NCBI RefSeq assembly: GCF_000376865.1
Contig: NZ_AQXQ01000012.1
Location: 496,001-560,000 of the forward strand
DNA length: 64,000 nt
DNA from: Thioalkalivibrio sp. ALJ7
GTDB taxonomy: Bacteria > Pseudomonadota > Gammaproteobacteria > Ectothiorhodospirales > Ectothiorhodospiraceae
Direction of reading: 5' to 3'
Of the stretch, positions 14,741-56,208 are shown piece by piece (positions within the stretch are counted from its first letter, which is position 1; each line of letters opens with the position of its first letter). The notes under the pieces were generated by a model. The model saw only the letters and a program-made list of their open reading frames with translations, was not told where the DNA came from and searched no databases. Made by a program: the position numbers and the translations under genes.

Positions 14741-14766
14741 CGCGATTCAATCAGCGTCTCCCTGAG
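14741..14766. repeat. Single-end relic of the MITE-like element
   Basis: The sequence cgcgattcaatcagcgtctc, continuing with cctgagg, closely resembles the right terminal repeat of the element at 55885-56208 (tgcgattaaaccagcgtctc, then cttaaagg). It lies directly after the smpB stop, in the convergent gap with the next minus-strand gene. No opposite end is found nearby. Confidence 0.45.
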
Positions 14767-55884: not shown

Positions 55885-56208
55885 CTTTAAGGAGGCGCTG
55901 GTTTAATCGCGCGTCCGCGCTCGAGTCGCTTTTGCGTGCAAACAAGGCGCGGTGACTGCCGTGCAGTCATTCTGCACAAGGGAACCGCAACGCTGTGCGC
56001 GCGCCCGTTTTTGATCGACAACGGGCGGCCAAGCCCCTGCTTCCAATGGTTTGTGGGGTTGGCGCCCCCTGTTCCCCGATCCTGCGTTGCGCCCCGAATC
56101 CATCAGAAACGGGCGGGTAGAACCACCACCCGCTGCACGACGCGCCTTGTCTCGGAAAACAGGGGGCACCAACGCGGACGTGCGATTAAACCAGCGTCTC
56201 CTTAAAGG
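55885..56208. mobile_element. MITE-like element with about 35-bp terminal inverted repeats
   Basis: The left end reads ctttaaggaggcgctggttt then aatcgcgcgtccgcg; the right end is its near-perfect complement (cgcggacgtgcgattaaacc then agcgtctccttaaagg), with about three mismatches in 35. The 250-bp interior has no ORF of note. No clear target-site duplication is seen (flanks tttg and tcct). It is probably a non-autonomous element without a transposase; single-end relics are noted at 3085 and 14741. Confidence 0.6.

Follow-up and report, generated by a model that had tools for sequence, protein, structure and literature searches.

A probable IS5-type MITE with a conserved double stem-loop interior in Thioalkalivibrio sp. 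ALJ7

Thioalkalivibrio is a soda-lake sulfur bacterium, and in the stretch of the strain ALJ7 genome considered here (64,000 nucleotides, hereafter the window, on contig C12 of a 2.71-Mb assembly, G000) two convergent genes, named DUF2459 and dacB in an earlier note on this DNA, are separated by a segment with inverted ends. The questions raised by this locus are whether the segment is a mobile element, what would move it, and whether its interior is anything more than filler. We consider it probable, at roughly 0.85, that the segment is a MITE of the IS5 type, mobilised in trans and carrying a conserved module.

Limits of the element, its insertion site and its copies

The earlier note placed a MITE-like element at 55885-56208, with terminal repeats of 35 bp. 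The element and its inverted ends are real, while both measures need correction. Judged from the sister copies of the family, the element occupies 55891-56201 (311 bp, + strand) and belongs to a subfamily termed I here; its TIRs, at 55891-55919 (+) and 56173-56201 (-), are 29 bp each and match at 27 of 29 positions. The first six bases of the 35-bp repeat are the TTAA of the target site plus two bases palindromic by chance. The TTAA duplication, of the YTAR form, is found on both sides, at 55887-55890 and 56202-56205. A repeat search delimits the inverted arms as 55885-55951 and 56141-56207, and the end at 56208 was one base too far. Two open reading frames of about 89 residues within the element have no Pfam match at E <= 0.01.

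As to the insertion site, the best named relatives of dacB are found in Thioalkalivibrio strains (up to 92% identity), and the gap lacks a full element in 10 of the 11 relatives compared. In strain AKL19 (L118) the flanks on the dacB and DUF2459 sides align, with no element sequence between them, and the element is also absent from the gap in ALE14, ALMg11, ALE31, AL 2, ALJ16, ALJT, ARh2 and ALJ24, while ALJ21 (L125) possesses a tip-only remnant. ALJ3 (L137) has a family copy in the same gap, placed separately at a different position. Of the empty site that the earlier note suggested looking for, the absence of the element is thus seen in most relatives, but the closest named relative has not kept the exact pre-insertion bases, and poor conservation of the gap prevented the recovery of an empty site exact to the base. 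The same gap holds, in ALE14 and ALE31, a segment of about 150 bp in opposite orientations (L119:6470-6650 and L121:6460-6640), lying between inverted CACGAAGCACACGAAGGCACGAAG-like repeats.

A BLAST search of the genome, another of the suggested checks, found 40 full or partial places of the element, and the tip pattern has 26 + 28 matches in this genome, versus 0 + 0 for the reversed pattern, well in excess of chance. With the ends parsed, 108 distinct complete copies are recognised across the genus, 37 of them in G000, where three places (L016, L140, L147) were left out because one end is missing. By BLAST, the family is present in 16 of 58 genomes, all of them Thioalkalivibrio (16 of the 30 genomes of this genus); model R2 matches 17 of the 30, along with two genomes from other genera of the family. 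No match was found in plasmid and phage collections, or in IMG/VR scanned with two core patterns. Two contigs of G000 end inside copies (C9:1-289 and C11:499987-500151), so the repeat breaks assemblies.

The tips are of two types, I (GGAGACGCTGATTKAATCGCACGTCCGCG) and II (GGAAACACTGATTAATGTACACGCTCGCG), and they pair almost exclusively with their own kind: among the 108 complete copies 56 are I/I, 49 are II/II and 3 are mixed or degraded. The arm adjoining the tip tracks the type, with CCCCCTG-type arms in 50 of 56 I/I copies and in none of the 49 II/II copies, and CCCCAGG arms in 42 of the 49 and in none of the 56. Identical flanking 4-mers, expected of target duplications, border 56 of the 108 copies, and 55 of these are YTAR; in G000 identical YTAR 4-mers flank 21 of 37 copies. 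Such flanks are intact at 17 of 19 type I copies in G000 versus 5 of 18 type II copies, and by this sign type I is the younger subfamily. Using a simple home-made gene predictor, 34 of 36 copies are intergenic and 2 overlap a predicted gene; the neighbours are in tandem around 18 copies, convergent around 10 and divergent around 6, so there is no strong bias toward convergent gaps.

Reduced forms are also apparent. A solo type I tip, a remnant on the - strand, is seen at window positions 14744-14765 (14744-14761 as annotated), immediately past the stop codon of a gene judged smpB-like by eye, with no partner end within the window. Tip-to-tip remnants of about 24-30 bp occur at L152 (C12:796719), L055 (C8:202217), L151 (C12:723332) and L125:6390-6425, with the target duplication kept or nearly so, and comparable tip pairs spaced 28-47 bp are present in G051, G439 and G578; these remnants suggest that the interior is deleted in a single event. 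Another arrangement is a stretch of about 1 kb enclosed by a pair of type I tips, each with CTAG beside it (L057:526-1518, that is C9 201448-202440 of G000), with open reading frames for a zinc-ribbon thioredoxin-like protein (trxC-like, by eye) and for a protein of 126 residues; it is either a passenger-carrying unit or two chance remnants. The sequence TCTCTCAATAGGTTGTCCAC recurs beside MITE tips (right part of L055, L057:500-522), and in L055 an open reading frame resembling, by eye, an IS481-type transposase begins beside it.

A conserved double stem-loop and its spread across the phylum

The earlier description left out the interior, which consists of two inverted stem-loops of about 105 nt around a small central hairpin. 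Half B (55919-56036, +) and half A (56059-56172, -, thus in the opposite sense) each read CAAGGCGC, then a stem-loop, then GCAACGC, inside complementary arms. Optional small hairpin modules occur in the halves of aligned copies; one lies within half B at 56002-56027 (+), where other copies have a short CAAAAG version instead. The predicted RNA folding energy of the whole element is -180.5 kcal/mol (z -8.5). The internal loops, CAAGGC / GCAACGC and GAG..G / AAGCGA, are conserved, and the arms vary freely while staying complementary. The central loop is UNCG-like in most sequences, but as UNCG reads as a GNA loop on the other strand, the motif does not discriminate between RNA and DNA. Since the halves are inverted, each strand has one half in the folding sense.

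The pairing was evaluated in an alignment (A3) of 23 half sequences, none from Thioalkalivibrio, two of them (L259 and L260) from other genera of the family. Double changes are seen in 28 of 33 pairs, and 92.6% of cells, which count sequences and not events, are paired. The covariation score is 0.702, versus 0.214 in shuffles (0 of 500 reaching it) and 0.09-0.15 when the alignment is slid. On 107 halves, in an alignment fitted to the model, 31 of 33 pairs covary.

The distribution of the module is much wider than that of the family itself. Of the covariance models, R1 was built from half B in Thioalkalivibrio, and R3 from A3, without any Thioalkalivibrio sequence. Within the class, R1 has matches in 43 of 369 genomes, representing 37 of 271 genera. 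Within the phylum, R3 has matches in 123 of the 398 genomes sampled, representing 56 of 213 genera; 44 of the 123 are from the same class and 79 from other classes, the latter mostly of one family (f207); E-values are rough and R3 copy numbers are lower bounds, as nine candidates were scored per genome. R3 recovers half B of the window element at 55934-56004 (+, 53.2 bits) and half A at 56040-56169 (-, 44.9 bits). All but one (L297:512-607) of 64 R3 matches in 121,587 bases fall on known elements, and none falls on the four insertion sequence (IS) loci included. In G000, R3 marks 83 half-sites in 48 clusters, 35 of them with both halves; BLAST had not listed 11 of these clusters, and R3 in turn misses 3 of the copies found by BLAST. 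The clusters that BLAST missed include C11:113339, C11:279554, C9:73028, C5:36817 and C9:163488, and one such cluster, L279, has the tips GGAAACACTGATCCATG.

Outside the genus, the module is likewise bounded by inverted tips. Thirty such loci, found with R1 or R2, were examined: tips match at 20 or more of 22 positions in 22 loci and at 19 or more in 27, compared to none of 53 control places within the same loci (maximum 17). Complete elements of 235-272 bp can be excised from 24 of the 30, while L218, L229 and L236 have a single half only. The tips are mostly unlike one another and unlike those of Thioalkalivibrio (GGCCTGTTAACACT, GCTCTGTTGACGTTT, GGTGTGTCATCACAC, GGAATCTCTGATTAATTC, TGTCCTGAATCGGAG and others), and the R3-matched loci examined are mostly elements of about 260 bp with entirely different tips. 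The interior in the window is thus one case of a phylum-wide module that stays while the tips change by lineage, and its presence behind differing ends suggests that the interior matters and is not junk.

The strongest alternative is that this is an ordinary MITE whose interior is passive, a functionless double hairpin descended from one ancient element and kept complementary through quasipalindrome correction. Templated correction readily occurs in hairpin DNA, the arms do change freely, and the tip-only remnants indicate that interiors are often lost with the duplication kept. However, the letters best conserved across genera are mostly in the unpaired internal loops (AAGGC, AACGC and parts of AAGCGA), so correction alone is not a sufficient explanation. 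Moreover, the non-canonical cells of the outer helix are uneven, with T.G (97) far above C.A (11), next to G.T (21) and A.C (16), in the model-fitted alignment of related halves, used here instead of the Thioalkalivibrio alignment, whose structure was chosen with wobble allowed; this asymmetry could be mutational in origin. We regard a passive interior as a real possibility, at clearly less than even odds.

It is less probable, and on balance unlikely, that the core mainly represents a structured non-coding RNA or an RNA-processing site, acting in stability, termination or RNase cleavage and repeatedly captured by IS5-type tips. The conserved loops within covarying helices, the UNCG-like central loop and the occurrence of one core with unrelated tips across many genera would all be consistent with such a role. 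On the other hand, inverted tips nearly always bound the core, with ambiguity at L237 and a few others, and signals of the kind expected are not beyond chance: no promoter-like site was found in the window copy, and it has one terminator-like site, versus 0.8 expected. Nor does Rfam provide a relative: 7 loci gave no match at E <= 1, and 10 loci gave nothing credible (3 sub-threshold miRNA matches).

A probable partner insertion sequence of the IS5 family

The earlier note saw no transposase in the window and proposed mobilisation in trans. The absence extends to the whole genome of ALJ7, with no match to PF01609 at E <= 0.01 and no relative of P0001, the transposase of the partner IS described here, at E <= 1e-5. 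In relatives, a look at IS tips, also suggested earlier, did find the same ends. The partner IS is about 1.2 kb long and encodes a transposase of 321 residues, P0001, that matches NF033581 (transpos_IS5_4) with 319 bits (cut-off 140; 2.2e-95). The IS is present, whole or as remnants, in 8 of the 30 genus genomes, all of them among the 16 that bear the MITE (p 0.002, ignoring kinship).

Its right tip in G022, GGAGACGCTGATTTAATC, is identical to the type I tips of sister copies, with close variants in other genomes, and over the first 18 bases differs from the left and right TIRs of the window element at 2 positions and 1 position, respectively. Its left tip reads GGAAACGCTGATCAATGG; taken as GGAAACGCTGATCAATG, the left tip is one base away from a type II tip. 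The right end of the IS thus matches one MITE subfamily and the left end matches the other, from which it follows that type I MITEs have two right-type ends and type II MITEs have two left-type ends. Identical 4-bp flanks border the IS copies at L163 (CTAG), L157 (TTAA), L167 (GTAG) and L158 (TAAG), while the flanking 4-mers of L159 and L164 are not identical. The IS5 group within the IS5 family is recognised by a 4-bp YTAR duplication and a transposase of that family, and both are found here, the latter being the NF033581 protein of the partner. In G029, a MITE copy (G029:C1:84311-84626) directly adjoins a copy of the matching IS (L091/L155).

The transposase of the partner would move the MITE in trans, recognising tips of about 17 bp. 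As the IS is not found in G000, the window copy is probably immobile unless G000 acquires the transposase anew. As to other lineages, only 5 of 17 module-bearing genomes contain NF033581, and no IS partner for GGCCTGTT tips was found via this family in the 17; likewise, nine other genomes revealed no tip pair at IS distance and no IS partner for GGCCTGTT tips. One NF033581 IS, in G117 (L302), has the tips GGAGCCTCTGAAC / GGAACCTCTGATC, resembling MITE tips in G250 (L233) and unlike those of the MITE in the same genome (L222).

Matching tips would also be expected if the MITE were an internal deletion derivative of the known IS5-family IS. However, MITE and IS interiors have nothing in common beyond about 17-20 bp at the tips, each MITE carries two copies of one IS end and not a left with a right one, and the MITE interior is far wider spread than the IS. 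A simple origin of this kind is rejected, as the likeness is confined to the tips, and we consider it very improbable. A chance inverted repeat or terminator is hardly conceivable, as the position between convergent genes and one weak terminator-like match are outweighed by tens of genomic copies with target duplications, by the tip-pattern counts and by the mere 10 of 36 copies in convergent gaps, and this explanation is refuted.

Overall, the data reveal a repeated family with inverted ends and YTAR duplications, absent from this gap in most relatives, whose tips match those of an IS5-family IS of the genus: a short, non-coding element with TIRs, at multiple sites, as expected of a prokaryotic MITE. 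Since both further copies and a transposase with matching ends exist, the interpretation of the earlier note is supported.

Known elements and the role of the interior

REP/RAYT systems are built of palindromes of 20-40 bp that bear a GTAG-type tag and are mobilised by RAYT. The Correia/NEMIS, ERIC and Nezha elements have ends and duplications other than those of the window element. Correia elements/NEMIS (of Neisseria), ERIC and Nezha are counted as MITEs in the accessible part of one source (PMC3733652) and, like the window element, are repeated, hairpin-forming and intergenic; they are set apart from it by their descriptions, and Rfam gave no relative. REPs are reported for Thioalkalivibrio in the portions available of two papers (PMC3733652, PMC3116915). 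REP, BIME and REPIN share with the window element paired inverted palindromes in intergenic DNA, but, as far as the consulted text goes, REPs measure 20-40 bp, in contrast to halves of about 105 nt between IS5-type tips with target duplications (PMC3733652); the separation from REP/RAYT is by size alone. The closest likeness in kind is with IS5-family MITEs and prokaryotic MITEs in general, which are, in the sections available of a review, under 500 bp, gene-less, with TIRs and a short target duplication, and mobilised in trans through a related IS (PMC10969869). Size, TIRs, duplication, intergenic position and a strong predicted fold are common to both, and the difference is the inverted stem-loop pair that is conserved phylum-wide while the tips change; no such shared interior is described in those sections (PMC10969869). 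One example from the same text is Chunjie of Geobacter uraniireducens, of 178-235 bp, which by description alone resembles the window element in its TIRs, direct repeats, tens of copies and partial copies (PMC10969869). The element itself is not described in the accessible portions of the literature consulted, including PMC3733652, PMC10969869 and PMC4853749, with subscription papers outside this scope.

How the module would serve the element is a matter for more cautious proposals. The conserved fold and the inverted halves fit action as a single strand, RNA or single-stranded DNA, whatever the orientation of insertion, and the stem-loops may well act in this form, though we are less sure of this than of mobilisation in trans. 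Our first choice, a tentative one, is that the stem-loops fold in transcripts crossing the element either way, which would make an intergenic insertion tolerable and let the element amplify. As a second choice, folding would take place at the DNA level and place both tips side by side for the transposase. Somewhat nearer to even odds, though still short of them, is the broader proposal of a phylum-wide hitch-hiker, in which the core is selected as a single-stranded structure, repeatedly acquires IS5-like tips and is itself the lasting replicating unit.

In conclusion, as a MITE the element is ordinary, and what seems to be new is the conserved interior under different tips. The interiors of MITEs are usually treated as decaying filler, but this one is conserved across genera and classes, with covariation at 28 of 33 pairs, while the tips, on which transposition depends, differ. 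The covariance model now allows the module to be counted in any proteobacterial genome. If this pattern holds, the interior would be an adaptation, making it testable why some MITEs succeed.
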